Below are positions 6,785 through 38,939 of a DNA stretch of 64,000 nt, piece after piece. This DNA comes from Octadecabacter ascidiaceicola. Lineage in GTDB: Bacteria; Pseudomonadota; Alphaproteobacteria; Rhodobacterales; Rhodobacteraceae. Where the stretch lies: positions 186,001 through 250,000 of the forward strand of contig NZ_FXYD01000002.1 in NCBI RefSeq assembly GCF_900185015.1, given 5' to 3'. The notes beneath the pieces were generated by a model. The model made no database searches. It was given only the letters and a program-made list of their open reading frames with translations, and was not told the DNA's origin. The translations under genes and the position numbers were made by a program. Numbering within the stretch: position 1 is the first letter of the stretch; each line of letters opens with the position of its first letter.

Positions 6785-7612
6785 ATGAGTGCTACAGCCA
6801 AAAAACGCGCACCGATGGCCGATGATATTCGCGCCGCAAAAGGTGGAACGCCACTTGTCAGCCTGACGGCCTACACAACGCCGATGGCGCAAATGATGGA
6901 CGCCCATTGTGACTTCGTTCTCGTTGGCGACAGCGTTGGCATGGTACTGCATGGCTTGCCGTCCACTTTGGGCGTGACGATGGAAATGATGATCATGCAC
7001 GGTCAGGCCGTTGCGCGTGGATTGAACAGCGCGATGATGGTGATCGACATGCCATTTGGCAGCTATGAAGAAAGCCCACAACAAGCTTTCGCAAATGCTG
7101 CGCAGTTGATGGCAGAAACGAACGCCGGCGCGGTGAAGCTAGAGGGCGGTGTTGCGATGGCGGAAACGATTGCGTTTCTGGTCGCGCGCGGCATTCCTGT
7201 GATGGCGCATGTCGGGCTTACGCCACAGTCCATCAACACGCTAGGCGGTTATAAGGTACAGGGCCGCGGCGATGCACACGCGATGCTGATGGCAGACGCG
7301 CAGGCGGTGTCTGATGCCGGTGCATTTGCCGTCGTCCTTGAAAAGGTGCCAGCAGGGCTGGCTGATGAAGTGACCGCGCAGATTGAAATCCCAACGATTG
7401 GTATTGGCGCGAGTGCGGGCTGTGACGGTCAGATCTTGGTTGTTGATGATATGCTTGGCTTGTTCACAGCATTCAAAGCAAAATTCGTGAAACGCTATGC
7501 GCATCTGGCTGACGACGGAGAGGTCGCAATCGCGGCCTATGCTGAAGAAGTGCGCGCGCGCACCTTCCCAGCCCAAGAACACACCTTCGCAGACGAGGTT
7601 CCTGTAAAATGA
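6785..7612 (+). CDS. panB: 3-methyl-2-oxobutanoate hydroxymethyltransferase
   Basis: First committed enzyme of pantothenate synthesis: transfers a hydroxymethyl group from methylene-tetrahydrofolate to 2-oxoisovalerate to form ketopantoate. The 275-residue protein has the usual length and motifs: [22 protein letters not shown] with metal and substrate ligands, [14 protein letters not shown], and the GHVGLTPQ-like AHVGLTPQS. The start has GAGGA a few bases upstream. The stop overlaps panC (ATGA), giving a coupled panBC operon. Confidence 0.96.
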
Positions 7613-8451
7613 CGGCCCCGATCGTACGGACTTTGGCCGAGCTGCGCGAATATACAACGGCGTGGCACAAAGCGGATGAAGTGATCGGCGCAGTGCCAAC
7701 GATGGGTGCATTGCATCAAGGGCATTTATCGCTGGTGCGGGCAGCAAAGGAGCAGTGTGACCGTGTTATCGTGACGATCTTTGTGAACCCGAAGCAGTTC
7801 GATAACCCCGATGATCTAAAGAATTATCCACGCACCGAACATGAGGATGCCAAGAAATTGGCGTCGCTTAAGGTCGATGTGATCTACGTGCCAAATCCCG
7901 AGGAAATCTATCCCGACGGTTTCGCGACAACCGTTTCTGTAAGCGGCTTGACGGATATGCTTTGCGGCGCAGCACGACCTGGACATTTTGACGGTGTCGC
8001 GACAGTGGTCAGCAAGCTGTTCATGCAGACGCGGGCTGATAAGGCCTTCTTTGGTGAGAAAGACTTTCAGCAATTACAGATCGTTACGCGTCTTGCGGTC
8101 GACCTTAACATTCCAATCGAAGTCGTAGGGTGCCCGACGATCCGTGAAGAAGACGGCCTGGCAATGTCCTCCCGCAACTTGCTTTTGTCTGACCGCAGCC
8201 GGGTCTTCGCGCCAATACTGGCTGAGGTGATGGGGGACATCGCTGAAGCACTGAACAAGGGCGAGGCAATGGGTGATGTCGTTCCGGACGCTACATCACG
8301 CTTGCTTTCTGTCGGTTTCAACGAAGTGGATTACCTTGAATTGCGCGACGGATCAGATTTGTCCCTGCTGAATTCAATGAAACCAGGCGCGCGCTTGTTT
8401 GCCGCAGCATGGCTCGCTGGTGTTCGCCTAATCGACAATATTGCCGTCTAA
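7609..8451 (+). CDS. panC: Pantoate--beta-alanine ligase
   Basis: Joins pantoate and beta-alanine with ATP to make pantothenate. The protein is 280 residues, with the nucleotidyltransferase motif [15 protein letters not shown] (HxGH), the IFVNPKQF loop, the pantoate-binding [15 protein letters not shown] and the conserved MSSRN segment. The start codon overlaps the end of panB by four bases. No terminator hairpin with a T-run was seen in the 60 bases after the stop. Confidence 0.96.
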
Positions 8452-10968: not shown

Positions 10969-10969
10969 G

Positions 10970-13689: not shown

Positions 13690-14385
13690 CCCCCATCCGT
13701 CAACGCATCTGACACGAAGTCCAAGCTCCAGTGTTGGTTTGGGCCATCGGGCAGCACCATCGGCATCCTCGTCCCAAAGCACGCTTTCTACTGCCTCTGC
13801 GGCGCACCTGAAGCTTCTCTTCGACATAAATGCGCCTCACCTTCTTGTGGTTCACGGAAAAACCTTCCCGCGCGATCATCACGCGGACACGGCGGCATCC
13901 AAACCGTCGTCGTTCTCTGGACACCCGTTTGATCGCATCGCGTAACTCAGTGTCATCGCCACGACGCGACTGATAACACACAGTTGATCGGTCAACTTGC
14001 AATACATCGCACGCCCGTCGCTGGCTGACCTGGTGAACTTCCAGCAAATGAACCACAGCTTTCCGCTTTGCCACGGGCGTCACCACTTTTTTGAGTTGAT
14101 GTCTCGCAGCATAGCGTTGTCCAGCATTTATTCCGCCAGCAACTTCTTCAGCTTGCCGTTCTCGTCTTCCAACGCCCGCAATCGCTTCGGGTCAGATGGC
14201 TCCATGCCACCATACTTCGATTTGTATTTGTAGAAGGTCGCAGAGCTGATCCCGTTCCGCTGACACACGTCAGCGGTCTTCTCGCCCGCTTCCTGTTCCT
14301 TGATCATCGCAATGATCTGTTCGTCCGTAAATCGTGCCTTCATTTGTCCGACCTTTTGTTGGGCGGACTCCACACAAATTTGGAG
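13690..14385 (-). mobile_element. IS3-family insertion sequence remnant (orfA plus truncated orfB)
   Basis: On the reverse strand, orfA runs from about 14343 to 14128 (MKARFTDEQIIAMI, then GISSATFYKYKSKYGG and a leucine-rich tail), the helix-turn-helix subunit of IS3-family transposases. orfB begins near 14086 (RRACDVLQVDRSTVCYQ, then FGCRRVRVMIAREGF). It shifts frame around 13750, where GPNQHWSLDFVSDAL is readable in another frame, and ends at about 13690 before the catalytic DDE residues are complete. The element is therefore dead. Its outer end shares about 120 bp with the fragment at 24485, beginning at CCTCCAAATTTGTGTGGAG. Confidence 0.85.
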
Positions 14386-14989
14386 GCGTTTTCCAGAACA
14401 TTATCCAGAGTCGCAGCCCCGGCACCGTTCTTCTGCCGCAGAAAACCATGCGCTCCTCGCGGATCGGCAAGACATTCTTCCAATGCCGCTCTGGCTTCCT
14501 TTGATACCTCGCCCGAGACCTCTGCCAGAAACCTTTCCTAGAACGCATGCAGGGCAGAACGGACCGCACGTTCCATAATCTTCCGCGAGGGCACGGATAT
14601 CGCTTTCAACAACGCCCAACTGAAACCAAAATCAATGAGAGGGTCGATGGTTGGGCCTGATCTGGCACATTCCTCAACAAGCACAGTATGGAGTTCCGCG
14701 CGATCCCGCGCATTCGCCCGGCGAAACCCCAGATTGCGTAGGATATCAAGGCGGTGACGGCGGGCAGCGTCAGATTGCAGATCGTATAGATGGACATCGG
14801 TGCCCAGCTTTTCCTCAACATACTGAACCTGGTCGTTTGCAATTTCATGAGCGTACCCGGAAAATACCCGCGACTGCGAAAATGAACCAGCTGAAGCGCC
14901 AACCCTGTGCGCATTGCGTGACGATATCCCTGAACGAAATCCAGCTCGCCATACGACAGGCTCCACACATTCAGTTCTTCGCGATCCAT
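14386..14989 (-). pseudogene. Tn3-family transposase (TnpA) N-terminal relic
   Basis: The reverse strand from ATG 14989 gives LSYGELDFVQGYRHAMRTGLA. After a frameshift near 14860 it continues with VQYVEEKLG, RRHRLDILRNLGFR, then a stretch ending IMERAVRSAL. A further shift gives EVSKEARAALEECLADP and ATLDNVLENAS. These are in the order of the DUF4158 N-terminal region of Tn3-type transposases. The frame breaks off exactly where the IS3 sequence begins, and the ~750-residue catalytic part is absent. No confident Tn3 inverted repeat was found in the 265 bp to the next gene, where I see no gene. Confidence 0.7.
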
Positions 14990-24324: not shown

Positions 24325-24484
24325 ATGCTTTGAGACGATGGCCCATACCCGCCTCGGTCACGCTATCAGCGTTTAGCTGTGTTTGTGATCAAAAACCGGA
24401 AGTTTTATTTCAAATATCTAACTACAACGCAACAAATAGGTACGATTTAGTAGCTTTGCACACCTGACCTGAGCCCCTAAAACT

Positions 24485-24606
24485 CCTCCAAATTTGTGTG
24501 GAGTCCGCCCGACAAAAGGACGGACAAATGAAGGCACGATTTACGGACGAACAGATCATTGCGATGATCAAGGAGCAGGAAGCGGGCGAGAAGACCGCTG
24601 ACGTGT
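24485..24606 (+). mobile_element. IS3-family end fragment (second copy)
   Basis: From CCTCCAAATTTGTGTGGAG to about 24606 the sequence matches, on the opposite strand, the outer end and the first ~30 codons of orfA of the remnant at 13690-14385 (FTDEQIIAMIKEQEAGEKTAD). It then stops abruptly at GACGTGT and joins an integrase relic. Both copies read inward, so they are inverted relative to each other and about 10 kb apart. Confidence 0.85.
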
Positions 24607-25127
24607 GGGGCGCTATCCAGACCTGTCCTTGGCGGATGCCCGAAAGCAAGCAAAACAGCTATTGGCCAACAATGCATTGGAGGAAGGGGCGTTTGTGCCT
24701 GAAGGGCCAATCATCTCGTTTGCTCAGGCCAGAGAAGACTTCCTCGCCGACTGCGAACGCCGCAATAAGCCACGAACCGTGGCCGACTATCGCCGTTTGC
24801 TGCATAAGCATTTCACTTTCAAAGGTGATGTTCGTGAGGTTAGCCGAGCTCAAATCATGAAGGTTATCTCTAAACTTTCAGACACACCTTCAGAGAAACC
24901 CCATGCGTATGTCGCCATATACCCTGCATGATCTGCGCCGTACATTCGCCACTACGCACGCAAAACTCGGCACTCCGATCCATGTTACTTAAAAGCTGTT
25001 GAACCACGTTTCAGTCACGATTAGCGGCGTTGCGGCGGTATACAACCGCCACACCTACCTAGAGGAAATGCGGGTCGCTGTGACCGCATATGATGATTAT
25101 CTCACCAAATTGATCCAAGACTGTTAG
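24607..25127 (+). pseudogene. Decayed tyrosine-recombinase integrase
   Basis: The first piece, to 24931, carries GRYPDLSLADARKQAKQLLA, the N-terminal arm-binding domain of P4-type integrases, and then a SAM-like core-binding domain (ISFAQAREDFL, RTVADYRRLLHKHF). A different frame from 24903 gives TLHDLRRTFATTHAKLG, a stop at about 24988, then LLNHVSVTISGVAAVYNRHTY, which are the C-terminal catalytic HxLRR, H and Y boxes. About 150 residues between them, including the first catalytic arginine, are missing. It is the footprint of a lost genomic island. Confidence 0.85.
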
Positions 25128-28685: not shown

Positions 28686-29300
28686 ATGTTCATGGGATAT
28701 TCTGGCGGGGCGTCAGCCCCGTCAGGGCATCAGGTGGTTAATTACTCTATGTCCTACGGACTGTCGGCCTCGTGGTCGCAGACCGAAGCTGACGAACTGG
28801 TGAAGCTGCTGACCAGCAACCCCGAAATGTCAGACGGAACGGCGGTGTTTGACGCCAGCCGTGGCAATGTTGGCGCAGCTGGGATGCCATCAGTTGCTGC
28901 CCTGACAAGCACACGTCAGACGATGCGGACACGCAAAGGTATGGATGGCAAAACCATCATCGCCGTCGCACCGCGCTACTTGCTGGTTTCCGCAGCGCTG
29001 GAAACAGAAGCGGAAAAGGTGCTGGCATCCATCCAGCCCAACAAGTCCGAAGACGTGAACCCGTTCGGTGGAAAGCTGTCACTACTGGTGGAACCGCGAT
29101 TGCCTGATGACTTCTGGTACGTCTTTGCAGACCCCGCCCGTTTGGCAGCAATGCAGTATGCCTACCTTAGCGCTGCGCAAGGTGTCCAAATCCAGCGGAC
29201 AGAGGCTTGGGACACGCTTGGGATGAAATTCCGCGCCTTCCTCGACTTTGGGTCTGGTTGGTTGGACTGGCGTCCCGTCCATCAAGTGCCGACAGCGTAA
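28686..29300 (+). pseudogene. Phage major capsid protein, C-terminal part
   Basis: The open frame encodes 204 residues. From about residue 20 it reads like the C-terminal half of prohead protease/major capsid fusion proteins of Mu-like phages: DGKTIIAVAPRYLLV, GGKLSLLVEPRLPD, WYVFADPARLAAMQYAYL and FRAFLDFGSGWLDWRPV. The protease and N-terminal capsid portions are missing, and the leading residues (GYSGGASAPSGH) probably come from the deletion junction. The stop overlaps the next start (TAATG), so the downstream gene order is still the native phage arrangement. Confidence 0.75.
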
Positions 29301-29512
29301 TGACGCTGCCCGAACTCATTGCGCGCCGTGACCGCTTGCGGCGCGCTCGCTTTAACGGTGTCGCTACAGTCAAAATTGACGGCGAAGAGGTGACCTACAA
29401 AACTGACGCACAGATTGCAGCGGCTTTGACGGCACTTGAAACCGAAATTGCAAAACTGACGCGCGGCACGCGCTCGCGCACAACCTATCCCCAAACCACG
29501 AAAGGGTTATAA
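29300..29512 (+). CDS. gpW-like phage head-tail joining protein
   Basis: A 70-residue protein starting at ATG 29300, overlapping the capsid stop. The sequence ARRDRLRRARFNG, VKIDGEEVTY and ALTALETEIAKL has the length and layout of lambda gpW-family proteins, which sit at the head-tail junction of the virion. The tail is rich in Arg and Thr. Confidence 0.7.
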   Translation: MTLPELIARRDRLRRARFNGVATVKIDGEEVTYKTDAQIAAALTALETEIAKLTRGTRSRTTYPQTTKGL

Positions 29513-29514
29513 CC

Positions 29515-29841
29515 ATGCGAAACTATATCCAACGCGGTGACACACTGACCTTCACAAGCGCCGATGCTGTTGCAGCCGGTCAGGGTGTGACCATGGGCGC
29601 ATTGTTCGGAATTGCCGCTGTCGATGCTGCACCGGGCGATGGCTTTGAAGCCAGCATTGTTGGTGTGTTCGAGTTGCCAAAGGCGGCTGGTGCAATTGAG
29701 GCCGGTGCGAAGGTCTATTGGAAAAGCGACACTTCGACTGTGACCACGACCGCAACTGGTAACAAGCTGATTGGCGCGACCACTGTCGCAGCTGCTGACG
29801 GCGCAACTACCACGGAAGTGCGCCTGAACGGCGCTGTGTAG
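29515..29841 (+). CDS. DUF2190-family phage protein
   Basis: A 108-residue protein starting MRNYIQRGDTLTFTSA and continuing VAAGQGVTMGALFGIA, then KAAGAIEAGAKVYW. This is the pattern of DUF2190 proteins, found next to capsid genes in many prophages and thought to decorate the head or assist its assembly. It follows the gpW-like gene by two bases, so the capsid block is still one operon. Confidence 0.8.
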   Translation: MRNYIQRGDTLTFTSADAVAAGQGVTMGALFGIAAVDAAPGDGFEASIVGVFELPKAAGAIEAGAKVYWKSDTSTVTTTATGNKLIGATTVAAADGATTTEVRLNGAV

Positions 29842-29855
29842 GGCAGGTAAAAACG

Positions 29856-30059
29856 ATGCCCAATGCGAAGGCAACAGTGAGACAGTCCGAACTGACACGC
29901 TATCTGAAGGCGTGGAAGGCGGCATATGATACGCCACCGGCAGTGCATGTGCAGCCGGATGGTACTGTCCTGTTGTTGCCTTCAAACGAGCCAACAGCAG
30001 GTAATGAGGGCGAACTGACTGCATTGGAAAAATGGAAGGCGCGACATGCTGTTACGTGA
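29856..30059 (+). CDS. Small hypothetical protein of element A
   Basis: A 67-residue, mostly hydrophilic protein with SELTRYLKAWKAAYD, an HVQPDGTVLLLP segment and TALEKWKARHA at the end. No family is recognised. It overlaps the following gene by 14 bases in another frame, and the gene order matches the region upstream of integrases in Rhodobacterales prophages. Confidence 0.55.
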   Translation: MPNAKATVRQSELTRYLKAWKAAYDTPPAVHVQPDGTVLLLPSNEPTAGNEGELTALEKWKARHAVT

Positions 30060-30432
30060 CTTCGATCCGATTGAATATCCTATTGTACCTGAATCCAGCC
30101 CTACAGAATTCAGGACAATGCCTTGGCCGCACAAATGGTGGTTGAAATCTGAAATCCGGTTGCTTTCAGAATCTGACGTTCGTGCTGTCGTGTTCGATTT
30201 GTTCTGCGTGGCGCTCTGCCAAAACCCTATTGGAACTTTGCCAAACAACGAACGCTTGTTGGTGCGGTTGATTGGCCTGCCGCTAGAAGATTGGCGGCGG
30301 CTAATGGCGCGCCGCATCACCCCGCTGAATGGCTGGGAAACCTGTATTTGTGGTGATGAAGGTATCCGGCTCTATCACCCAAAAAGTCTTGAGATCGCAA
30401 AGGAGGCGTCCAATGCCAAAGGCAAAACATGA
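30046..30432 (+). CDS. DUF1376-like phage protein
   Basis: A 128-residue protein whose central part WPHKWWLKSEIRLLSE, then VVFDLFCVALCQNPIGTLP, resembles the start of phage replication-associated DUF1376 proteins. The match is partial, because no DnaT/DnaC-like C-terminus follows. It overlaps the integrase start by 20 bases. Its role in element maintenance is only suggested by position. Confidence 0.5.
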   Translation: MLLRDFDPIEYPIVPESSPTEFRTMPWPHKWWLKSEIRLLSESDVRAVVFDLFCVALCQNPIGTLPNNERLLVRLIGLPLEDWRRLMARRITPLNGWETCICGDEGIRLYHPKSLEIAKEASNAKGKT

Positions 30433-31468
30433 CCTTCCAAAAGGTGTTCACCGCGTAAGGCGGAAAGTGCGGGCAGGCTATCGCTGGCATTTCTATGCTT
30501 GGCGCGGTGGGCCGAAATTCTGGACGGATGACGTTCGGAAGCCAAGCGAACCCGAATTCTACCATGCATTTGCTGAAGCAACGACACGGCCACAACCATC
30601 TAAATATATGGTGCCGCAAATGGTTGATGATTTCCTGTCCAGCACCGCATTGCCAAAGGCTGAACGGTCCCGTCTTGATTTGAGGAAGTGGGGACTGCGT
30701 TTTGCCGAACACTTCAAAGATGCGCCTGCTGTAATTTTTGAGGAAAGGGGATCGCGCGGCGAAGTGAACGCATGGCGCGCGCAATGGAGCCACTCACCAA
30801 AACAGCATGATGTTGCTGGCACACACGCCGCACGGATTTTGAATTGGGCGGTGCAGGAAGGGAAGTTGGCAGAGCATTTTTGCCATAAGTTGCATCGCCT
30901 TTATGAGGTGGATCGATCTGAAATCATTTGGGCTTCATCTGATCGTGAGGCGTTCAATGGAATCGCGCCAGATTGGGTAAAGCGCATTTTGTGCGTAGCT
31001 TGTGAAACCGGATTGAGGCCAGGTGACTTGGTGAAGCTGACTACTGCCCACGTTGAAAAGACACCGATGGGCCGTAGGCTGCATGTGCGGACCAGTAAGC
31101 GCAAAAGGCTTGCTCATATTCCCATAACGCCAGAATTGGCCCGTGTGATCGATGCTACACCGCAGGGGCAGCTTTTAATCCTGACTAACGCCACCGGCAA
31201 CGCATTGACCCCGCACAGGGCTTCAGAAGGTGTCAGGCAGTGGCGAGACAAGGCCAGTCTATCATCTGACCTTAGATTGTATGACGCGCGCGGCACAGCT
31301 GCGACACGATTGCTGAATAATGGGCTGTCGCTTGCTGAAATCGCAAACCACATGGGATGGTCAATCCGCTTTGCAGCCAATGTCATCGAACATTATGCGC
31401 GGGTGTCACCAGACGAAACTGACGCTGTTCTAGTCAAATTGGCACAGGCAAAAGGGGGCACAAAGTGA
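30413..31468 (+). CDS. Tyrosine-recombinase integrase of element A
   Basis: A 351-residue site-specific recombinase starting at ATG 30413 behind a perfect AGGAGG. LPKGVHRVRRKV and FYAWRGGPKFW form the N-terminal region. The catalytic domain has the first arginine in CETGLRPGDL, box II as YDARGTAATRLL (the usual histidine is replaced by Tyr-Asp), HMGWS, and the nucleophile tyrosine in IEHYARVSPDE. It closely resembles the integrase at 37727 in the same order of motifs, so the two elements use related machinery. It lies 75 bp from the 47-bp att repeat that it presumably recognises. Confidence 0.9.
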   Translation: MPKAKHDLPKGVHRVRRKVRAGYRWHFYAWRGGPKFWTDDVRKPSEPEFYHAFAEATTRPQPSKYMVPQMVDDFLSSTALPKAERSRLDLRKWGLRFAEHFKDAPAVIFEERGSRGEVNAWRAQWSHSPKQHDVAGTHAARILNWAVQEGKLAEHFCHKLHRLYEVDRSEIIWASSDREAFNGIAPDWVKRILCVACETGLRPGDLVKLTTAHVEKTPMGRRLHVRTSKRKRLAHIPITPELARVIDATPQGQLLILTNATGNALTPHRASEGVRQWRDKASLSSDLRLYDARGTAATRLLNNGLSLAEIANHMGWSIRFAANVIEHYARVSPDETDAVLVKLAQAKGGTK

Positions 31469-31475
31469 ACAAAAC

Positions 31476-31495
31476 TGTAAACGCACCTGTAAACG
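31476..31495 (+). repeat. Paired TGTAAACG repeats, candidate integrase-binding sites (element A)
   Basis: TGTAAACG occurs at 31476-31483 and 31488-31495, one 12-bp step apart, and 47 bp before the att repeat. The same pair with the same step and distance occurs beside the second integrase at 38799-38818. Confidence 0.6.
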
Positions 31496-31542
31496 GCGCA
31501 GTCCGCGCAATGGGTACAGTCTTACAAGCCATTGAAATCGTT

Positions 31543-31589
31543 TGGAGGCGAGTACGAGAATCGAACTCGTGTACACGGATTTGCAATCC
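31543..31589 (-). repeat. att site: 47-bp copy of the 3' part of tRNA-Cys
   Basis: Matches 43 of 47 positions of the tRNA-Cys gene at 38866-38912, from the CCA end through the anticodon loop. All four differences lie in the T-stem and are paired, so the T-arm still folds. It marks the shared boundary of elements A and B. Confidence 0.85.
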
Positions 31590-31699
31590 AGAAAGAGAGA
31601 CAGCGAAAACAACAGGTTAAGGGTGCAAAACACCCCCTGACAAAAAGTGAACAAAAAGCGAAAGTTTCAACGCCAATTTCGCCGGTTCAAAACGAAAAA

Positions 31700-31733
31700 G
31701 GCCCCGTCACAGCGGCAACTGTGAACCGGGGCC
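31700..31733 (-). terminator. Strong hairpin with reverse-strand T-run
   Basis: An outer stem GGCCCCG/CGGGGCC and an inner stem TCACAG/CTGTGA enclose CGGCAA. Reading the reverse strand the stem is followed by TTTTTCGTTTTG, the form of an intrinsic terminator for leftward transcription. It could insulate the att boundary from transcription out of element B. Confidence 0.6.
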
Positions 31734-31839
31734 AAATAGAAAAAGCCTGTCAGCTTCCGCAGCACATTAGCACGAGCCGGAGTCGCATCGCAAATGCTCA
31801 GTCGGCCTTTTGGCGGCCTCTGACTGGTGAGGCGGTCCA

Positions 31840-32703
31840 ATGAGCTGGCGCATAGCAAATGAATGCGCCGAGCGCCGCTTTGGCAGCGCCGCGCGCAAGC
31901 AGATCATCATGTTCCTGGCCGACAAGGCGAGCGATGACGGCTCAGGCATCTGGTGCTCGAAGGGGACGATCCAGCGCCACACAGAGCTTAGCGAGAGCAC
32001 GGTCAAGCGCACCATTATCGACTTCCTGCGCGAAGGCATTCTGATTGAGACAGGGCGGAGGCACTGCAAGAACGGCTACACCGTCATTTACCGCATCGTT
32101 CTGGAACGCGTGGCCGCGCTCGAGCCCACGGCTGAGCCCGACATTGAGACGGGGGTCACAGTGAACCCCGTCCAGCCTGAACCCGGTACGGGGTCCACGG
32201 TGAACGGGGTACGGGGTTCACGGTGGACCCCAAACCATCCTAAAACCATCCATAAACCACCTACGCGCAGGCGCGAGGCGGCGGAGGAGGTTGAAGATCT
32301 TGAAGCTGAGAAGATCTTAGCGGCCTTTCCCGAAGACAGGATCCGAGACCGGCGAACCAGTCTGCTCCTGATCGCAGCGGCTGTGAAGGCCGGTGTGACG
32401 CCCGATGACTTGCTGGCGGCAGTCAAAGCTTATGCCAAAGAAAGCGAGGGCTACACCCGCAGCAAGGTCTGTTTCTCGGACAATTGGTTCAAGATGCGCC
32501 GGTGGGAAAAGGGACTGGTCCAGATCCAGGCCGACCGCGAGAAGGCGCGAGAGGCCAAAGCCAAAGGTCGTGCCAGCCTTGCCGAGTGGATTCACGAGCG
32601 CCATCCCCTCTGCCGCCATATCACGAACCGCCAGATCGAAGACTTGATCGCGTCAAAGATGGTGACGCCCGAGCAAGTGCGCTCTGCGGGGCTACAGACG
32701 TGA
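31840..32703 (+). CDS. Helix-turn-helix replication-initiator-like protein of element B
   Basis: A 287-residue protein. The N-terminal ~90 residues are a winged-helix region (AARKQIIMFLADKASDDG, SKGTIQRHTELSESTVKRTI, RREGILIETG-like) of the type in phage replication protein O and plasmid Rep-like proteins. A proline-, valine- and threonine-rich linker follows, encoded by DNA with strong palindromes. The C-terminal half is helical (SLLLIAAAVKAGVTPDDLL) and ends with an RQIEDLI segment. Genes of this kind are the usual replication gene of small Rhodobacterales prophage-like elements. A preceding 31532-31843 open frame that starts inside the att repeat overlaps its ATG and is not accepted as a gene. 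Confidence 0.7.
   Translation: MSWRIANECAERRFGSAARKQIIMFLADKASDDGSGIWCSKGTIQRHTELSESTVKRTIIDFLREGILIETGRRHCKNGYTVIYRIVLERVAALEPTAEPDIETGVTVNPVQPEPGTGSTVNGVRGSRWTPNHPKTIHKPPTRRREAAEEVEDLEAEKILAAFPEDRIRDRRTSLLLIAAAVKAGVTPDDLLAAVKAYAKESEGYTRSKVCFSDNWFKMRRWEKGLVQIQADREKAREAKAKGRASLAEWIHERHPLCRHITNRQIEDLIASKMVTPEQVRSAGLQT
32148..32231. repeat. Two palindromes inside the replication gene, candidate origin
   Basis: Palindrome 1 (32148-32172) pairs GACGGGGGTCAC with GTGAACCCCGTC around one base, 11 of 12 matching. Palindrome 2 (32190-32231) pairs GGGGTCCACGGTGAAC with GTTCACGGTGGACCCC across 10 bases, 15 of 16 matching. Both share GGTTCAC/GTGAACC-like cores and so look like iterated binding sites in the linker-coding part of the gene, as in lambda-type origins. 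Confidence 0.55.
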
Positions 32704-32749
32704 TAGCATTGGCGAAGTCTGAGAGACAGCTCGCAACGCTGTTGATATT

Positions 32750-32821
32750 TATGATGCTCAGATCATACTGTTGCTTTATGATTTGGAGATCATATTGACA
32801 ATTTATGATCTAGAGGTCATA
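32750..32821. promoter_or_regulatory. Three operator-like repeats upstream of hipBA
   Basis: TATGAT-N6-ATCATA occurs at 32750-32767 and 32777-32794, and TATGAT-N6-GTCATA at 32804-32821. The copies start exactly 27 bp apart and end 21 bp before hipB. They fit the expected autoregulatory sites of a HipB-type repressor. Confidence 0.75.
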
Positions 32822-32842
32822 TGGAGTGGCAGGAGAACCGCC

Positions 32843-33094
32843 ATGAAGCACCTCGTTCGTACATCAAAAAACTTGGGCCACGCAATTCGCCAGGCTCGGA
32901 AAGCCAAGAACCTGACCCAGACGGAACTCGCCGCTATAAGCGGTGTCTGGCAGGAGACAATTTCCAAGATCGAAAACGGCAGCGGGGGCACAAAGCTGGA
33001 AACGTTATTCGATTTGATCGCGGCCTTGGAGCTCGAAATTACGGTGACCGAGCGCAGCAAAGGCAAATCAGACGGGCTAGAGGACATTTTCTGA
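32843..33094 (+). CDS. hipB: HipB-like antitoxin and repressor
   Basis: An 83-residue Cro/C1-type helix-turn-helix protein with LGHAIRQARKAKNLTQTELAAISG, then VWQETISKIENG. The C-terminal ELEITVTER strand is typical of HipB antitoxins. It should dimerise, bind its own promoter and neutralise HipA. ATG 32843 is chosen because AGGAG lies upstream and the motif starts soon after; a longer frame from 32771 would run through the operators. hipA begins one base after its stop codon. Confidence 0.9.
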   Translation: MKHLVRTSKNLGHAIRQARKAKNLTQTELAAISGVWQETISKIENGSGGTKLETLFDLIAALELEITVTERSKGKSDGLEDIF

Positions 33095-33095
33095 C

Positions 33096-34397
33096 ATGGG
33101 CCGCAAGCGCAGTTACACACCGCTGAACGTTTTCCTGAACTCGCGGCTCGTGGGTCAATTGGTGCGTGAGCCCTCAGGCGGCGTCAGTTTCGCCTATGCA
33201 CGAGACTGGCTCGACTGGGAGCACCGAATGCCGGTGTCGTTATCGTTGCCATTGCAGGAAAACCGCTTCAGCGGAGCACCTGTGATGGCCGTCTTTGACA
33301 ACCTGTTGCCTGACAGTGACCTCATTCGTCGAAAGGTCGCAGAACGCGTCGGGGCTGAAGGTGTGGATGCCTTCAGCCTGCTGTCACAAATTGGGCGTGA
33401 CTGCATCGGTGCGCTTCAGTTCCTTCCCGACGGGCAAGAGCCACAGCCAATGTCCGAGCTGACTGGGGAGCCTGTTGATGACGATCAGATCGGGGCAATT
33501 TTGAGCGATCTCGATCTTGCGCCACTGGGTATTCGCCGCGAGAATGACTTCCGCATTTCTGTCGCTGGTGCGCAGGAAAAAACCGCACTGCTCCGTAAAG
33601 GCGGCCAATGGATTGAGCCAACCGGCACGACGCCAACCACGCACATCATCAAACCGCAAATTGGCAGACTGCCCAACGGCATGGACCTGTCCGACAGCGT
33701 TGAAAACGAATACCTGTGCCTCAAGCTGATGGAAGCGTTTGGGCTTAGGGCTGCGAATGTCGAAATGGCTCAGTTTGGCGATAAGAAAGCCTTGGTGGTT
33801 GAGCGTTTTGATCGGCGTTGGACGTCTGATGGCCGCTTGATCCGTCTGCCACAGGAGGATTGCTGCCAAGCACTATCCATTGTGCCCACGCAAAAGTACC
33901 AGAACGAGGGAGGTCCAGGGATCCCGGATATCATGGATCTTTTGTTGGGAAGTGATGATCCCAACAAAGACAGGTACGATTTTTTCAAAGCCAACGTCCT
34001 GTTCTGGTTGCTGGGTGCGACAGACGGACATGGTAAGAACTTCAGCGTCAGCCTTTTGCCCGGCGGCCGTTTCCGCATGACACCGCTTTACGACGTGCTG
34101 ACGGTGCAGTCGACCGTCGACGCCCGCCAGATCGAGCGGAAATACTTCAAGCTAGCTATGAATTTCGGCAAGTCGAACCACTACAAAGTGGCGAATATCG
34201 TGGGCCGCCACATCGTGGAGACCGGAGTTCAATCCGGCTTGTCCCGCGCGGTCGTGCAGAGCCTGTTCGAAGAGCTGCAAGAGACTTCGCACGCGATCGT
34301 TGAGGCCACGTTCAATCAGCTTCCTGCGGGTTTCCCAGAAGCGTTGCTTGCTTCCATCGACAACGCGCTGAAAGCTAGGTTGCACCTGTTGAGCTAA
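33096..34397 (+). CDS. hipA: HipA-family serine/threonine kinase toxin
   Basis: A 433-residue kinase. The Couple-hipA N-terminal domain is followed by the kinase core: ISVAGAQEKTALL at about 164-176, which contains the serine equivalent to the autophosphorylation site of E. coli HipA. It also has ALVVERFDRRW (240s), the catalytic loop LGATDGHGKNFS with Asp310, and PLYDVL with the metal-binding aspartate at about 342. All catalytic residues are present, so it should be active against a translation factor such as a tRNA synthetase, as known for the family. It forms an operon with hipB and is the intact relative of the relic at 10127. Confidence 0.93.
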   Translation: MGRKRSYTPLNVFLNSRLVGQLVREPSGGVSFAYARDWLDWEHRMPVSLSLPLQENRFSGAPVMAVFDNLLPDSDLIRRKVAERVGAEGVDAFSLLSQIGRDCIGALQFLPDGQEPQPMSELTGEPVDDDQIGAILSDLDLAPLGIRRENDFRISVAGAQEKTALLRKGGQWIEPTGTTPTTHIIKPQIGRLPNGMDLSDSVENEYLCLKLMEAFGLRAANVEMAQFGDKKALVVERFDRRWTSDGRLIRLPQEDCCQALSIVPTQKYQNEGGPGIPDIMDLLLGSDDPNKDRYDFFKANVLFWLLGATDGHGKNFSVSLLPGGRFRMTPLYDVLTVQSTVDARQIERKYFKLAMNFGKSNHYKVANIVGRHIVETGVQSGLSRAVVQSLFEELQETSHAIVEATFNQLPAGFPEALLASIDNALKARLHLLS

Positions 34398-34655
34398 AGC
34401 TGATCGCGCTTGCTTGGTGCCAAGATGCGTCTTTTCGGTGGTAAAGGAATTCAGTCAGGTTGTCATAGCCGAACTCAGATCCTCAATGCCGTGTTTCTGA
34501 TTGCTGAACATAGAGGTGTGAGAGCTGTGGGTCAACTTGAGATATGGATAGCGTTATGTCAGAAAGGAGGCTTGTATTTGACGTAGATGTTGCGGGCACG
34601 TCAGAAACTGAGATAAGACTTCAGGTAACGCAAAAAGCATGGGTGTTCTTGATAT

Positions 34656-35792
34656 ATGGATATCACAGAGTTTAAGTCCGGTAAACTTGAGGACCGGTAC
34701 GAATATCAGGCCTTTCTACCAGAAACCATTTGTCATGAATGGGTTGTAACGGACCCAGAGCTTTCTGATCTCTTAGGCCGCGCAGACCGTGCCTTGGGAG
34801 AGTTGAATGCCTTTGCGCAATTGATCCCTGATATCGAGTTCTTCATTCGAATGTACGTGGCCAAAGAGGCCACACAGTCCAGCAGGATAGAAGGAACCCA
34901 AACCAATATTGAGGATGCGTTCAAGGATGCCGATGACTTAAACCCCGAAGAACGCGATGATTGGGCTGAGGTGCAGAATTACATCAATGCAATCAATCAC
35001 GCGATTGATGCGTTGGATGAGCTGCCCCTTTCCAACCGGTTATTACGCCAAACGCATGAAATCCTGCTGTCTGGCGTGCGTGGAGAGCAGAAACAGCCCG
35101 GACAGTTTCGAACCAGCCAGAATTGGATTGGAGTCAGCCTGAAAAATGCTGTTTTTGTACCGCCACATCATGAGCATGTTCCGGATCTCATGAGCGATCT
35201 GGAGGCGTTTTTGCATGCGGATACTCTGTTTGCCCATCCACTGGTTCGGATCGCCATCGGGCACTACCAGTTTGAGACAATCCACCCGTTTTTGGACGGT
35301 AATGGGCGGTTAGGCCGTTTGCTAATTTCACTTTACCTGGCATCCGAAGGGCTGCTGGTCCGGCCTGCACTTTATCTTTCGGACTATTTTGAACGCAACA
35401 AGACCGCTTATGTCGATCACTTGATGGCGGTTCGCCAAGGCAATCACCTGCGCGCGTGGCTGGTGTTTTTCCTTCATGGTGTGGAGGAAACGGCGCGCGC
35501 TTCAGCAGATGTGTTCCGCTCAATTCTTGCAATAAAGGAGCGGATCGAAAGAGACGTCTTGCCGCGTTTTAGTGCACGTCGACAAGACAACGCTCAGGCG
35601 CTGATACGTCATCTTTATGCGCGCCCCGTTGTTGACGTGAATATGGCAGCTAAAATAATTGGAGCTACAACCAACACTGCGTCAGCGCTTATTACGGACA
35701 TGGTCAGTCATGGGGTATTATTCGAAATTACTGGCCAACGTCGCAACCGGTTGTTTGTATTCAGTGAATACATTGAGTTATTCAGGAGATGA
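34656..35792 (+). CDS. Fic-family protein, probable AMP transferase
   Basis: A 378-residue protein of the Fic family, which transfers AMP or another phosphate-containing group from a nucleotide to target proteins. The catalytic motif HPFLDGNGRLGR begins at His210. The N-terminal SSRIEGT at residues 75-81 matches the class II-type inhibitory (S/T)-x-x-x-E-(G/N) helix, so the protein should be self-inhibited. The C-terminus looks like a winged helix (DVNMAAKIIGATTNTASALI). It lies about 260 bp after hipA, with no separate antitoxin gene. An intact motif suggests an active enzyme; its target is unknown. Confidence 0.88.
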   Translation: MDITEFKSGKLEDRYEYQAFLPETICHEWVVTDPELSDLLGRADRALGELNAFAQLIPDIEFFIRMYVAKEATQSSRIEGTQTNIEDAFKDADDLNPEERDDWAEVQNYINAINHAIDALDELPLSNRLLRQTHEILLSGVRGEQKQPGQFRTSQNWIGVSLKNAVFVPPHHEHVPDLMSDLEAFLHADTLFAHPLVRIAIGHYQFETIHPFLDGNGRLGRLLISLYLASEGLLVRPALYLSDYFERNKTAYVDHLMAVRQGNHLRAWLVFFLHGVEETARASADVFRSILAIKERIERDVLPRFSARRQDNAQALIRHLYARPVVDVNMAAKIIGATTNTASALITDMVSHGVLFEITGQRRNRLFVFSEYIELFRR

Positions 35793-35915
35793 CGGTGAAA
35801 TGCAGCCCATGTGTCAGATGTTAACAATTTGATATGCGGGCAGATTGTTGAACGTCTCAGGACTTTGGCCAGTACCTCACCAACCGACCTTACACTTAGA
35901 AGCGGATGTTTGTGG

Positions 35916-36260
35916 TGACACTGCGAAAATCCGCGTCTACCCATACAAAAGACCCTCGGAGCACTAGCAAAAGCGACCGCAACGCCGACAAAGCGCTATT
36001 GCGCTACAGCTGCCCAGGGACTGCTCTTATTCTCTTGCGACATTATCCAATCTGCCCTGATGGCACTGGAGGATTGGGCTTTTTCCGAACTTGAAGCTGG
36101 GCGTGACCCCGACGAGATCGTTCGGGACCTAGTTTCAGGTCATGAAAGCGTTGCCACACTTGGCATCGCTCTAGGCATTTTGTTGGAAAAAGACTCCATG
36201 TCACCCGTTGCAGTCGCTCTTGTTAGTTGCCAACGCATAGCCTCCGAAGAATGTGCTTGA
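35916..36260 (+). pseudogene. Fragment of a larger protein
   Basis: An open frame without a proper start yields about 114 residues containing LLLFSCDIIQSALMALEDWA, RDPDEIVRDLVSGHESVATLG and VAVALVSCQRIA. It reads like a helical internal piece of a much larger protein, followed by a stop at 36260. I do not recognise the parent family. Its presence beside fic suggests that element B lost a larger cargo gene. Confidence 0.4.
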
Positions 36261-36339
36261 TCGGGTGCGCGACCTCTAGAAGTGTTTGGCAAAAGCGAGC
36301 CAAATTTGTCGGCTCAGGTAAGATCACGGAGGTTATTGG

Positions 36340-36948
36340 ATGCGTAGACTAGTTTGGAAATGTGGCCTCGGGGTGTCGGTTGCGGCTCTCCTTTCCATTG
36401 CGTCGCCGCAGCCAGCCAAAGCCTATCAGGTCGATTGTGCCATTCTGCTATGCCTTGCTGGTGGGTTGCCAGCTTCAGCAGAATGTGCTCATGCACGGGC
36501 TGTGTTTATCAGGCGGATTACGCCTTGGCCGATCGAGCCACCTTTGCAGATTTGGCGTTGTCCAATGGGGGTATCCGTGAATACACCACTGCAAGACCGC
36601 GGAAATCCAGCGCGGATTATTTTGGCGCAGCTGTCCGAGAGCGGTGGCGCAGACATCGACATCAGCGGGTTTGAATTTGATTTTGTGCGTTCCATCCGCG
36701 TCTGGGATGTGAGCCATTACAGTCACCGAGAGCGAGGCCGTGACGATGATTGCTCAGAACGCTACAGCATGAATCTAGGCACCTACGGCACGCAGGGCGG
36801 TTTCAGCTGGCAAAGAACAACGCCTGCCTCAGCCCCCACATGGGTCATCCCCTCGCGCAGATGCTCATCTTCTAACACGCGGCGCGGTGTTGGTGTGGAG
36901 TGGGAAGATCACGAGGGCAACCATGGGTATGAGTGGGTCGCCTACTGA
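36340..36948 (+). CDS. Exported protein of the type found in conjugative-transfer regions
   Basis: A 202-residue protein with a signal peptide ending at PAKA, then AYQVDCAILLCLAGG, CAHARAVFIRRITPWPIEPP and LQIWRCPMG. I recall this pattern from hypothetical proteins encoded beside tra/trb genes of alphaproteobacterial plasmids. The C-terminal half is rich in Arg, Ser and Trp and less recognisable. No other transfer gene is present, so it may be a leftover of plasmid origin. Confidence 0.55.
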   Translation: MRRLVWKCGLGVSVAALLSIASPQPAKAYQVDCAILLCLAGGLPASAECAHARAVFIRRITPWPIEPPLQIWRCPMGVSVNTPLQDRGNPARIILAQLSESGGADIDISGFEFDFVRSIRVWDVSHYSHRERGRDDDCSERYSMNLGTYGTQGGFSWQRTTPASAPTWVIPSRRCSSSNTRRGVGVEWEDHEGNHGYEWVAY

Positions 36949-37256
36949 TCGTCGGTCCCGATATCTTTCATGCGATCAGAAATATCACCTGCTATCCGCT
37001 CATAAAGTGCGGCTTGTTTGTCTCGTGCAGATCCTGGCTTGGGTTTTCTTCGGCGAATTCTCTTTGCAAGCCACAACAGCAAGCGCGCTGCAGGGTCTTG
37101 TGTCGTGTCGGCGGCATCAGTTGGGTACTTTTCCTCAAGCACGACCACAATTTCCTGCGAAAGGCTGCGCCTGTTGAGGGATGCATGGGTCTCTAACCGC
37201 TTTTTTAGGGCGGCGGGGAGCAAAAGCTTAAACTGAATCAGGTTCTCATTCTTCAT
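36942..37256 (-). CDS. Arc-type ribbon-helix-helix regulator
   Basis: A 104-residue protein with an N-terminal ribbon-helix-helix domain: IQFKLLLPAALKKRLETHA, then NRRSLSQEIVVVLEEKY. It is followed by a basic segment (RIRRRKPKPGS) and a helical tail. ATG 37256 is chosen because the domain begins a few residues later. It is divergent from a second ribbon-helix-helix gene, with two shared palindromes between them, so the pair probably controls excision or cargo genes of element B. Confidence 0.75.
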   Translation of the reverse strand: MKNENLIQFKLLLPAALKKRLETHASLNRRSLSQEIVVVLEEKYPTDAADTTQDPAARLLLWLAKRIRRRKPKPGSARDKQAALYERIAGDISDRMKDIGTDDQ

Positions 37257-37267
37257 AACGGCACTAT

Positions 37268-37307
37268 GGACAATATTTGTCCTCAATGGTGTGGACAATT
37301 TATGTCC
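37268..37307. promoter_or_regulatory. Two operator-like palindromes between divergent regulators
   Basis: GGACAATATTTGTCC (37268-37282) and GGACAATTTATGTCC (37293-37307) share GGACA-N5-TGTCC and start 25 bp apart, between the two ribbon-helix-helix genes. They are good candidates for operators bound by one or both proteins. Confidence 0.65.
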
Positions 37308-37325
37308 CTAATTTGAGGTGCTGAA

Positions 37326-37544
37326 ATGAAAACAACCCAGTTCAAATTGAATTTGCCAGCTGACGTTAAGCTTTGGCTCGAAGAGGAAGCGGTTCGTAAC
37401 CTTCGTTCTCAGGGCTCGCAAGTTGTGTCTTGTTTGCGGGCTGCGATGTCGCGACAGGCGACAGTGCATGACGGGGCGGAAGAGTGTGCAAGATCAGTTG
37501 CAGCTCATCCCGACGCCTCAATTGGCCTTGATGTTTGGCTATAG
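37326..37544 (+). CDS. Small ribbon-helix-helix protein of element B
   Basis: A 72-residue protein with QFKLNLPADVKLWLEEEAVRN and SQGSQVVSCLRAAM, an Arc-like ribbon-helix-helix. The last ~25 residues overlap the following gene in another frame and are probably not conserved. TGAGGTGCTG precedes the ATG. It faces the other Arc-type regulator across two palindromes. Confidence 0.65.
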   Translation: MKTTQFKLNLPADVKLWLEEEAVRNLRSQGSQVVSCLRAAMSRQATVHDGAEECARSVAAHPDASIGLDVWL

Positions 37545-37740
37545 TGAGCCAACGAATTCATTTTATGATTTTAGTCGCCGCAGCGGTATATCGCCGGTTC
37601 CAGGCCGTCGGGGCTGGTATGATCCAAAACTTGTACGCGCACGATTAGACGCAGTTCAAGGGATTGATGTTTCCAGATCCGAGGATAAAACGGTACTGAG
37701 CCTTGTTGCTCAGCGAAGAGCACGCCGTGCCCAGAAGTAG
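37468..37740 (+). CDS. Excisionase-like DNA-binding protein
   Basis: A 90-residue protein with LIPTPQLALMFGYSEPTNSFYDF, then RRGWYDPKLVRARLDAV. This is the layout of small winged-helix or excisionase-like proteins that direct integrase towards excision. The start could be ATG 37468 or GTG 37486, the latter behind GGCGGAAG. It overlaps the upstream ribbon-helix-helix gene by about 77 bases and the integrase start by 14, so the three are packed as one transcription unit. Confidence 0.6.
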   Translation: MTGRKSVQDQLQLIPTPQLALMFGYSEPTNSFYDFSRRSGISPVPGRRGWYDPKLVRARLDAVQGIDVSRSEDKTVLSLVAQRRARRAQK

Positions 37741-38803
37741 CCTTCCCAAGGGCGTTCATCGTGTCCGGCGCAGGGTTATGGCCGGTACCCGCTATCATTT
37801 CTATGCATGGCGAGGTGGCCCTAAGTTTTGGGAAGGAACTGATCCAGACCCGAAGGAGCCGGAATTTTTCTATGCATTCACGGAATGTGGCAAACCGGTA
37901 AGCCCTTCTGAATATTTGACGACGCTACTAATTGACGATTTTCTATCCAGTGCATCCTTGCCCAAGGCTGAGCGTTCAAAGGCTGATATCCGCAAATGGC
38001 TGGAGTTGTTCCGCGAGGAGTTCGGCGCAGATCCTGTCGTGATGTTCGAAGAGCGTGCTTCAAGGGGTGAGGTCAATAATTGGCGCAAGAAGTGGCTTCA
38101 TTCGCCCAAGCAGCATGATATGGCGGGCACCCATGCGACACGCGTTCTGAATTGGGCGGTAGAAGAGGGGAAGCTGAAAGAGCATCACTGCCACAAGCTC
38201 AAGAAGCTCTACCAATCGAACCGCACAGAAATCATCTGGACGAGCGGCGATATCGCACAGTTCAACAAACATGCGCCCAAGTGGGTCCAGAGGATCCTGA
38301 CCGCCGGATGCGAAACCGGCTTGCGAGCGGCCGATCTGGTTCAGGTCAAAATGGACCAATTCGAAGATACGCCGCACGGCAAGCGCCTTCGTTTCAGGAC
38401 CAGTAAGCGCGGCCAGATCGCATATATCCCTGCCACATCGGCACTTGAGAAATTGATCGCAGAGACACCAGTAGGCCAAGAGGTGTTTCTGGTGTCAGAG
38501 CTTGGTAGGCCCTTGACGGCCCGGTGGGCATCGAACCAGATCACCAAGTGGCGGCGCGAAGCTCAGATCCCCCCTTGGATCGACGGCAGGGAGAAGACTC
38601 TGTCTGATACGCGCGGGACGGCGGCGACACGATTGCTGAATGCGGATCTTTCTTTGCGCCAGATCGCGGTGCTAATGGGGTGGTCGGTTCGCTACGCAGC
38701 GCAGGTAATCGAGCATTATGCGCAGGTCAGCCCGGACGAAAGCGATGCGGTTTTGCGCAAGCTCAATCGAGCAAAATCACTGTCTCAAGACACAAAAATG
38801 TAA
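37727..38803 (+). CDS. Tyrosine-recombinase integrase of element B
   Basis: A 358-residue recombinase, starting at GTG 37727, where alignment with the element A integrase begins (LPKGVHRVRRRV, FYAWRGGPKFW). The catalytic arginine is in CETGLRAADL, box II reads SDTRGTAATRLL, then LMGWS, and the nucleophile tyrosine is in IEHYAQVSPDE. As in element A the box II histidine is not present. The gene reads towards the tRNA-Cys gene and ends 62 bp from it, the usual arrangement for a tRNA-targeting integrase. Confidence 0.92.
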   Translation: MPRSSLPKGVHRVRRRVMAGTRYHFYAWRGGPKFWEGTDPDPKEPEFFYAFTECGKPVSPSEYLTTLLIDDFLSSASLPKAERSKADIRKWLELFREEFGADPVVMFEERASRGEVNNWRKKWLHSPKQHDMAGTHATRVLNWAVEEGKLKEHHCHKLKKLYQSNRTEIIWTSGDIAQFNKHAPKWVQRILTAGCETGLRAADLVQVKMDQFEDTPHGKRLRFRTSKRGQIAYIPATSALEKLIAETPVGQEVFLVSELGRPLTARWASNQITKWRREAQIPPWIDGREKTLSDTRGTAATRLLNADLSLRQIAVLMGWSVRYAAQVIEHYAQVSPDESDAVLRKLNRAKSLSQDTKM

Positions 38804-38818
38804 ACGCCCCTGTAAACG
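38799..38818 (+). repeat. Paired TGTAAACG repeats, candidate integrase-binding sites (element B)
   Basis: TGTAAACG at 38799-38806 and 38811-38818, a 12-bp step, 47 bp before the tRNA-Cys end. The first copy overlaps the integrase stop codon. The geometry matches the pair in element A. Confidence 0.6.
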
Positions 38819-38865
38819 CGGGGCCCCAAACATGACAAGGAGTGGTGTAAGTGATTGTTTTTAAA

Positions 38866-38939
38866 TGGAGGCGAGTACCGGAATCGAACCGGTGTACACG
38901 GATTTGCAATCCGCTGCGTAACCACTCCGCCAACTCGCC
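38866..38939 (-). tRNA. tRNA-Cys (GCA anticodon), integration site
   Basis: A 74-nt cloverleaf on the reverse strand. The acceptor stem is GGCGAGT/ACTCGCC, the discriminator is T, and CCA is encoded. The anticodon loop is TTGCAAA with anticodon GCA, and the T-arm has a TTCGAAT loop. The 3' half is duplicated at 31543-31589, and the gene is intact after integration, as expected when an element restores the tRNA end it invades. Confidence 0.95.

Follow-up and report, generated by a model that had tools for sequence, protein, structure and literature searches.

Integrative and conjugative elements (ICEs), integrative and mobilizable elements (IMEs), and cis-mobilizable elements (CIMEs) are known to accrete in tandem at shared attachment (att) sites, with att copies lying between neighbors, the inner element often decayed, and the target gene restored at the outer end (PMC5704250). 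Capsid-forming satellites have been described in other host groups, where their mean size is 14 kb (PMC10803314), and are also treated in PMC11389934. In Shewanella putrefaciens, the composite island CGI48 lies at a tRNA-Trp gene, and its HipAB is reported to stabilize the island (PMC8978831). Here, we analyzed a 64,000-nucleotide stretch of the Octadecabacter ascidiaceicola genome (contig NZ_FXYD01000002.1, positions 186,001 to 250,000; hereafter, the window), in which two integrases, IntA and IntB, each lie beside a tRNA-Cys sequence: element A next to a displaced 3′ half and element B next to the gene itself. Tyrosine integrases that recombine inside a tRNA gene restore it with the element's own copy of its 3′ end.

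We consider it likely that serial site-specific integration at tRNA-Cys built up a composite island in the window: A came first, and islands of the IntX and IntB kinds followed, these two being most likely fused by a deletion. An earlier note on this DNA had proposed two integrations into the same tRNA gene. Serial insertion, with a younger element displacing an older one, is supported by an empty site in a relative (G009), by the absence of A from relatives, and by stacks elsewhere; the count of two is doubtful, since B may stand for two further integrations.

The tRNA-Cys site and its empty counterpart

The source genome is a 3.23-Mb draft assembly. The single tRNA that ARAGORN finds in the 64-kb window is the tRNA-Cys(GCA) gene listed in Table 1. 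Bases 31543-31589 align without gaps to 38866-38912 with 43 of 47 identical, the identity spanning the gene from its 3′ end through the anticodon stem-loop. The four mismatches form two compensatory T-stem pairs that keep Watson-Crick pairing (ACCGG/CCGGT in the gene and ACGAG/CTCGT in the copy). When the copy and its surrounding 301 bases were used as a query, the genome returned the query itself and the gene (E value of 3.3e-12); since these are the sole two matches in 3.23 Mb, the likeness is not due to chance. The 47-bp copy of the tRNA-Cys 3′ part that the earlier note placed to the right of one integrase is therefore real, with the IntA open reading frame (ORF) ending 74 bp to its left. 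The note was also correct that the gene itself lies to the right of a second, similar integrase: the IntB ORF ends 62 bp from it, and the two integrases, both of which match Pfam Phage_integrase, are 57% identical. A third repeat left of 28686, suggested in the same note as something to look for, was not found: the window holds no third att copy at ~72% or better over 25, 30, or 47 bases on either strand, probes of 15 to 47 bases gave chance-level matches only, and no further tRNA-Cys 3′-half copy was found elsewhere in the genome. The left end of A is gone.

The same-genus comparison set consisted of 18 relatives, several of them incomplete, all of which matched a tRNA-Cys and pcm query at least in part. 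Two genes at the left of the variable region, which we take from their translations to be panB-panC, were located in 10 of the 18. The empty site that the earlier note hoped to see in related genomes is present in G009, where the order is panC, ~130 bp, tRNA-Cys, and pcm: contigs C76 and C258 overlap by 99 bp that hold the tRNA-Cys gene, panC lies on C76, and the second contig continues into pcm. The 30.4 kb at 8452-38865 of the window have no counterpart at this site. The gene and panC are separated by 30.4 kb in the window, compared with 41.7 kb in G018 and 33.7 kb in G016; since these distances differ among relatives, the variable DNA comprises 8.45 to 38.87 kb and reaches beyond the 28.7 to 38.9 kb considered initially. 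No conserved left flank was found within 20 kb of the gene in the relatives, so panBC were taken up as the left neighbor.

By DNA, element A is absent from the tRNA-Cys site of all 18 relatives, and a search of the same set with IntB as the query gave no IntA match. IntB proper occurs in two of the 18 (G003 and G017), each time within a separate conjugative island, and G015 has a 41-residue IntB-like piece. G001 has two extra copies left of the gene, at distances of 5.7 and 19.4 kb; G004, G017, and G002 have one each, at 10.2, 45.6, and 5.0 kb, respectively. A single inherited block covering 28.7 to 38.9 kb, which would speak against separate insertions, was looked for in the relatives and not seen. 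In G003, the right end of the IntB island (L035/L049) is at tRNA-Cys, and the matching left end is 2.17 Mb away on the opposite strand, a layout that a large inversion through the island could have produced.

Element A and its ~10-kb relatives

Element A tracks, gene by gene, the right end of a locus from Thioclava sp. SK-1 (L121) that measures 10,306 bp from copy to gene: along 28749-31468, protein identities are 76, 71, 74, 71, 53, and 85%. The left limit of A was first set at 28686 and has to be moved, as homology to the phage-like relatives starts at 28749. What remains (28749-31589) includes no left att copy, no terminase, and about one-third of the capsid gene, so A cannot act alone. A search of the source genome with the large terminase subunit (TerL) of L121, run without a positive control, gave no match. 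A corresponds to the right-hand quarter of a ~10.3-kb element and is a truncated relic; the element it comes from is best taken as satellite-like, with head genes only. A and B had been taken for related elements; their integrases are indeed related, but the elements are of different kinds, A being phage satellite–like and B being derived from island ends.

One genome per species was scanned with IntA, IntB, and two relatives as queries, which yielded 70 loci, nearly all from Rhodobacterales. A tRNA-Cys 3′-half copy (38 of 47 bases or better; the tRNA scan covered 55 of the 70 loci) was present in 58 of the 70, mostly as the gene itself just right of the integrase; in nine of these 58 loci, the integrase is followed directly by a nongene copy, i.e., in a stacked layout. 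Seven loci on the IntA side have a left copy and the gene at the right: besides L121, these are L120 (10,304 bp), L122 (10,087 bp), L124 (10,423 bp), L129 (10,288 bp), L132 (9,369 bp), and L143 (8,577 bp).

Head genes are found in six of the seven. The order in L121 is O-like replication initiator, small terminase subunit (TerS), TerL, portal, a fusion of protease and major capsid protein (MCP), Ad1, decoration protein, two small ORFs, and integrase; three further short ORFs, all unassigned, separate TerL from portal. A second head module (adaptor, TerL, head closure, HNH, MCP, protease, and portal) occurs in L120, L122, L124, and L129, head closure being unseen in L122. These elements have their own terminase, portal, protease, and capsid genes, as identified by PHROGs in L121 and L124/L120 and by homology to those in L122 and L129. 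L143 encodes a protease-MCP–like protein, and L132 gave no head match by tblastn (profiles were not applied to L132). No tail or lysis families were recognized in L120, L121, L122, L124, and L129 among the ORFs scanned, some short ORFs lying outside the scan. AlpA/Stl-type regulation and pri-rep are hallmarks of capsid-forming phage-inducible chromosomal islands (cf-PICIs); the relatives of A gave no match to AlpA and have the O-like replication initiator and weak helix-turn-helix matches.

These results bear on whether A derives from an ordinary tailed prophage instead of a satellite. Head genes are all that is left in the window, and the relic alone cannot tell the two apart; moreover, four viral contigs of 36 to 47 kb (L204-L206 and L210), possible full-size phages and even candidate helpers, carry integrases 40 to 60% like IntA and neither of the head modules. 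Nevertheless, the five relatives with 80 to 85% identical integrases and copies at both ends measure only 10.1 to 10.4 kb, head genes included, and have no recognized tail or lysis gene in the ORFs scanned. Viral contigs point the same way: the 17 contigs with the L121 capsid (4.9 to 17.0 kb) and the 43 with the L124 portal (4.4 to 20.5 kb), many of them near 10 kb, are at most 17.0 and 20.5 kb long. We therefore regard a tailed-prophage origin of A as quite improbable. In the viral contigs, 26 loci have integrases 31 to 100% like this family. One such contig, 11.1 kb long and of metagenomic origin (L201, 321-11121), encodes head genes and an IntA-like integrase and has 47-base tRNA-Cys–type repeats close to either end. 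In 50,697 phage records, the best 15 matches listed were 27.6 to 29.4% identical for the L124 TerL and 28.4 to 33.7% for the L121 capsid, and all matches were under 60%.

The integrase tree kept 55 of 61 loci, with the longest open piece of each being used (L116, L125, L130, L133, L141, and L144 were dropped); a first version, from which rows with a stop in the matched stretch had been removed, kept 45 of 61 and was then redone. IntA of the window falls into a 12-row clade (98/85) together with eight capsid-labeled loci and three unlabeled rows, and the 28 rows labeled as conjugative islands are all outside this clade; the labels are loose, being based on tblastn matches within 10 kb. Overall, intact relatives of A look like capsid-forming phage satellites. 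With moderate confidence, we see A as what is left of a member of a widespread and so far undescribed satellite family of Rhodobacterales, ~10 kb in size, capsid forming, and tail-less, which has a sister integrase and the same tRNA-Cys site as a family of conjugative islands and at least two interchangeable head modules. Such elements would meet the islands at the site, where stacking and recombination would make hybrids and repeatedly swap the 3′ half of the host tRNA-Cys, T stem included.

Element B and its two ends

G257 matches the stretch 31542-34512, which comprises the left end, the replication gene, HipBA, and a 45-bp motif, at 90% identity over 2975 bp; the element of G257 has a third integrase, IntX. 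The left end of B is of the X type (AGAAAGAG..., motif GAAAGTTTCAA). A search of the family sample at an E value of 1e-3 gave this end type in 20 of 393 other genomes (long matches in 17 genomes, short and weak ones in 3), and a tRNA-Cys 3′ half lies directly left of it in 13 of the 16 loci read. IntB islands have another left end (GGAAAATT..., motif TGTAAACG), to which the left 250 bp of B show no match, and the arm motifs differ between the two ends of B, TGTAAACG on one side and GAAAGTTTCAA on the other. Since its ends come from different element families, B is a recombinant, with its left part (31543-34512) from islands mostly using IntX and its right part (36237-38865) from IntB conjugative islands. 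The earlier note considered B to be bounded on both sides, which holds in that it lies between two att copies; it is not a single simple element, its ends belonging to two families. A simple deletion of the G017 island was rejected as the origin of B, because the left end of that island is not the one found in the left 250 bp of B. Also rejected, as relatives of the B left end, were the left ends of L106, L112, L119, L125, and G004, L116 being the sole match in that set.

The 45.6-kb island of G017 carries genes that we take, from their translations, to encode relaxase-, coupling protein–, and Trb-like proteins. In 9 of the 70 loci, including G017's own record (L087), an IntB-like integrase has homologs of the G017 conjugation genes no more than 10 kb away, and a distant homolog (40%) was found in L114 and L115. 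Six G017 conjugation proteins gave no tblastn match at an E value of 1e-3 in 31543-38865; as controls, all six were recovered in G017 and TrbE in the searched part of G003 (85%). The Fic gene of B has 69 to 75% matches in five genomes (G168, G032, G226, G218, and G047). The 45-bp motif downstream of HipA is 80 to 98% conserved in many islands, though their HipA proteins are about half alike or less, and is possibly a terminator, a transfer origin, or a cargo boundary. The G017 island (L065/L066) also contains a run of very large ORFs (1035 to 1437 amino acids) that have, by eye only, the look of a defense system.

The pairing of end types with integrases was assessed in 13 relatives in which both ends were read and no copy lies between them. 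Left outside this set were G272 (a 45/47 copy inside the island), G344 (an IntX right end and no left end in the stretch read), G003 (with its widely separated ends), G118 and G130 (ends on different contigs or unseen), and L116 (a degenerate copy). End types and integrases match in 12 of the 13: an X-type left end accompanies IntX in eight (G061, G257, G067, G056, G390, G389, G258, and G210), and a GGAAAATT-type left end accompanies IntB in four (L096, G017, G325, and G031). The window pairing, an X-type left end with IntB, occurs in none of the 13.

Table 1. Features of the composite island and its left neighbor (coordinates are those of the window)
Feature	Coordinates	Strand	Remarks
panB-panC, left neighbor of the tRNA-Cys site	6785..8451	+	Names from translations
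C-terminal piece of protease/major-capsid fusion	28686..29300	+	L121 residues 400-579, 76%
Element A relic, right end of ~10.3-kb capsid-encoding element	28749..31542	+	Matches L121 right end from ~8330
Head-tail adaptor, Ad1-like	29300..29512	+	71% to L121
Head decoration/cement protein	29515..29841	+	74% to L121
Two small ORFs, same order in L121	29856..30432	+	71% and 53% to L121; no function assigned
IntA, tyrosine integrase	30329..31468	+	85% to L121 integrase
Proposed IntA arm-type sites: GTGAAC, then TGTAAACG twice	31465..31495	+	Motif only
Displaced 47-bp tRNA-Cys 3′ half, att copy between A and the next element	31543..31589	+	T stem ACGAG/CTCGT
X-type left end, motif GAAAGTTTCAA	31590..31839	+	As in most IntX elements read
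Replication initiator–like protein	31840..32703	+
HipB-like antitoxin (HTH_3)	32771..33094	+	
HipA-like protein	33096..34397	+
45-bp noncoding motif downstream of HipA	34468..34512	+	90% G257 match ends here; conserved in many relatives
Fic family protein, cargo	34656..35792	+	Origin unassigned
IntB-type right end of conjugative island	36237..38865	+	91% to G325 where match starts; ~80% to G017 over 2.5 kb
o36340, conserved island right-end protein	36340..36948	+	No family match
Arc-like DNA-binding protein	36942..37298	-
Small ORF before integrase, excisionase by position only	37423..37740	+	No family match
IntB, tyrosine integrase	37703..38803	+	94% to G017 island integrase, 95% to L084
Proposed IntB arm-type sites, TGTAAACG twice	38799..38818	+	Motif only
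Intact tRNA-Cys(GCA), attachment target	38866..38939	-	T stem ACCGG/CCGGT

Proposed history of the island and comparison with known systems

Each element would have carried a tRNA 3′-half copy beside its integrase, and recombination in the anticodon loop would have given the host gene the newcomer's 3′ half while pushing the former 3′ half and the older DNA to the left. The first arrival would have been A, a small, capsid-encoding, tail-less, satellite-like element with IntA, which was later cut to its right quarter. Next would have come an IntX-kind island, the presumed source of the left end, replication gene, and HipBA, and an IntB-kind island, the presumed source of the right end and IntB. 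Most likely, a deletion between these neighbors then removed IntX, the att copy between the two islands, and any conjugation genes, producing the 7.3-kb recombinant at 31543-38865. A fusing deletion between two stacked islands implies at least three insertions at tRNA-Cys. Two relatives show the order that such a deletion would need. The 48.4-kb IntB island of G325 has as its immediate left neighbor a 22.4-kb stretch that opens with an X-type left end and in which no IntX was found; L096 has a 7.4-kb IntB element with an IntX-like integrase (72%) adjoining it on the left. We infer that deletion within a tandem pair is a likelier route to B than end exchange. With different arm motifs at its two ends, the recombinant may be poorly excised, and HipBA may help hold it in place.

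The T stems may serve as tags of the successive arrivals. In each copy, the T-stem part is the one nearer to the integrase on the left; A would thus have supplied the CGAG stem at 31543, and the CCGG stem of the gene would have come with the IntB end. Given the two compensatory T-stem differences from the gene, the copy at 31543 was probably brought in by an element. Among 14 same-genus tRNA-Cys genes read, T stems are CCGG in eight (including the empty-site G009), GGAG in four, CGAG in one, and TCGG in one. The exact CGAG 43-mer is present in 6 of the 394 genomes of the family sample, the source genome included; in the five others, four of the matches are whole tRNA genes, two of which stand beside IntA-like integrases (72% over 141 amino acids and 40%). 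The G001 stack has three 3′ halves, with CCGG far left, CGAG in the middle, and CCGG in the gene.

Several observations weigh against the proposed history. The order of events is inferred by position only, and the integration of A at tRNA-Cys is read from its right end and its relatives, the left copy being lost. The empty site of G009 is split over two contigs, and a 72% match to 340 bp of the capsid piece of A stands at an unrelated place in G004. The junction within B lies somewhere between 34512 and 36237, and the 450 bp after Fic have no assigned source. In addition, G018, a near relative without an IntA match, has CGAG in its own gene, so this stem could be native to the lineage. Together with the missing left att copy of A, the G018 gene would fit an account in which just one integration took place, the host's own 3′ half being what it displaced to 31543, and in which the 28.7- to 31.5-kb region is old prophage debris that never integrated at this gene. 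However, the short spacing between IntA and the copy resembles that of IntA-like integrases beside tRNA-Cys in relatives, which makes the junction a typical right end, and CCGG is the stem of the empty site and of most same-genus genes read. We consider this account very improbable.

The remaining contrary observations concern the ends of B. A strict rule that end type and integrase always match was rejected, as it is broken by G274 (L301-L291, G274:C2:91004-140818), the one mismatch among the 13 relatives: this uninterrupted conjugative-type island of ~49.7 kb has a GGAAAATT-type left end and IntX, the reciprocal of the window mismatch. Its presence on a large island suggests that an exchange within the replication-gene region common to both kinds may produce mismatched ends and that such ends may work. 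Similarly, at L116, from an Albidovulum metagenome-assembled genome, the left end is X-like (76%), the integrase resembles IntB (69%), and the left copy is degenerate (34/47); this is the one other place where the combination of the window was seen, in a weaker form. Both loci agree with a history of two insertions only, in which A was followed by a mobile recombinant B that had swapped its left end with an IntX island before arrival and could still be moved by IntB. So do the clean bounding of B by copy and gene, the intact IntB ORF, and the replication protein, which is 90 to 96% identical in the IntB islands of G017 and G003 and at most X-type loci and would make an exchange of ends there easy. 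On the other hand, the pairing in B was seen in none of the 13 two-ended relatives, 12 of which are matched, its arm motifs differ, and it is without all the conjugation genes looked for. A two-insertion history thus seems rather unlikely to us, and serial integration followed by a fusing deletion is retained as the preferred reading. Seen by itself, L116 (8762-11225) is a minimal 2.4-kb element at tRNA-Cys, made up of an end, a replication gene, a small ORF, and an integrase, and is perhaps another recombinant.

The 30-kb island of the window has other features. At 24465-24931, an insertion-sequence fragment of ~143 bp adjoins the N-terminal piece of a third integrase type (Arm-DNA-bind_3); the fragment has a 97% repeat at 14264-14392, one more in the genome, and many copies in G002. 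An apparent broken HipA-like gene at 10180-11190 consists of two ORFs, with a HipA_C match in the first piece only.

Tandem accretion at tRNA genes and capsid-forming satellites are known already; the ~10-kb family behind A in Rhodobacterales is apparently undescribed and is, at the least, a new variant. By title or abstract, no description of capsid-forming satellites in Rhodobacterales, Rhodobacteraceae, or Alphaproteobacteria was found, most subscription journals being outside the coverage. Charybdis elements, presented in PMC12324425 as archaeal, 4.6 kb long, and with no hallmark genes, were set aside. If the ~10-kb elements are true capsid-forming satellites, they extend this lifestyle to an important group of marine bacteria, and records from Thioclava, Roseobacter, and Epibacterium among the loci offer cultured hosts. 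Since satellite-like and conjugative elements share an att site and sister integrases, each can displace, trap, or recombine with the other, and T-stem differences may record which of them supplied the current tRNA 3′ half, making the order of insertions readable from sequence.

The relatives of A resemble cf-PICIs in being small integrated elements with their own packaging and capsid genes and no tail genes. They differ in their Rhodobacterales hosts, their ~10.3-kb size, the lack of an AlpA match, and the position of the integrase opposite the replication-gene end. With Trb-type conjugative islands at tRNA-Cys (45.6 kb in G017, 48.4 kb in G325, and 29.8 kb in G067, using IntB or IntX), B shares ends, the replication gene, the position of HipBA, o36340, the Arc-like protein, and the integrase; unlike them, it is without the six conjugation proteins looked for and has ends of two kinds. 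As in the tandem accretion of ICEs, IMEs, and CIMEs, the window combines serial integration, att copies, a decayed inner element, and the gene at the outer end, but the stack here joins a capsid-encoding element to conjugative-island ends, the integrases being related, and its outer element is a recombinant with two kinds of ends. Finally, both the stack in the window and CGI48 are composite islands at a tRNA gene with HipAB; in CGI48, one island lies inside the other, whereas in the window they lie side by side.

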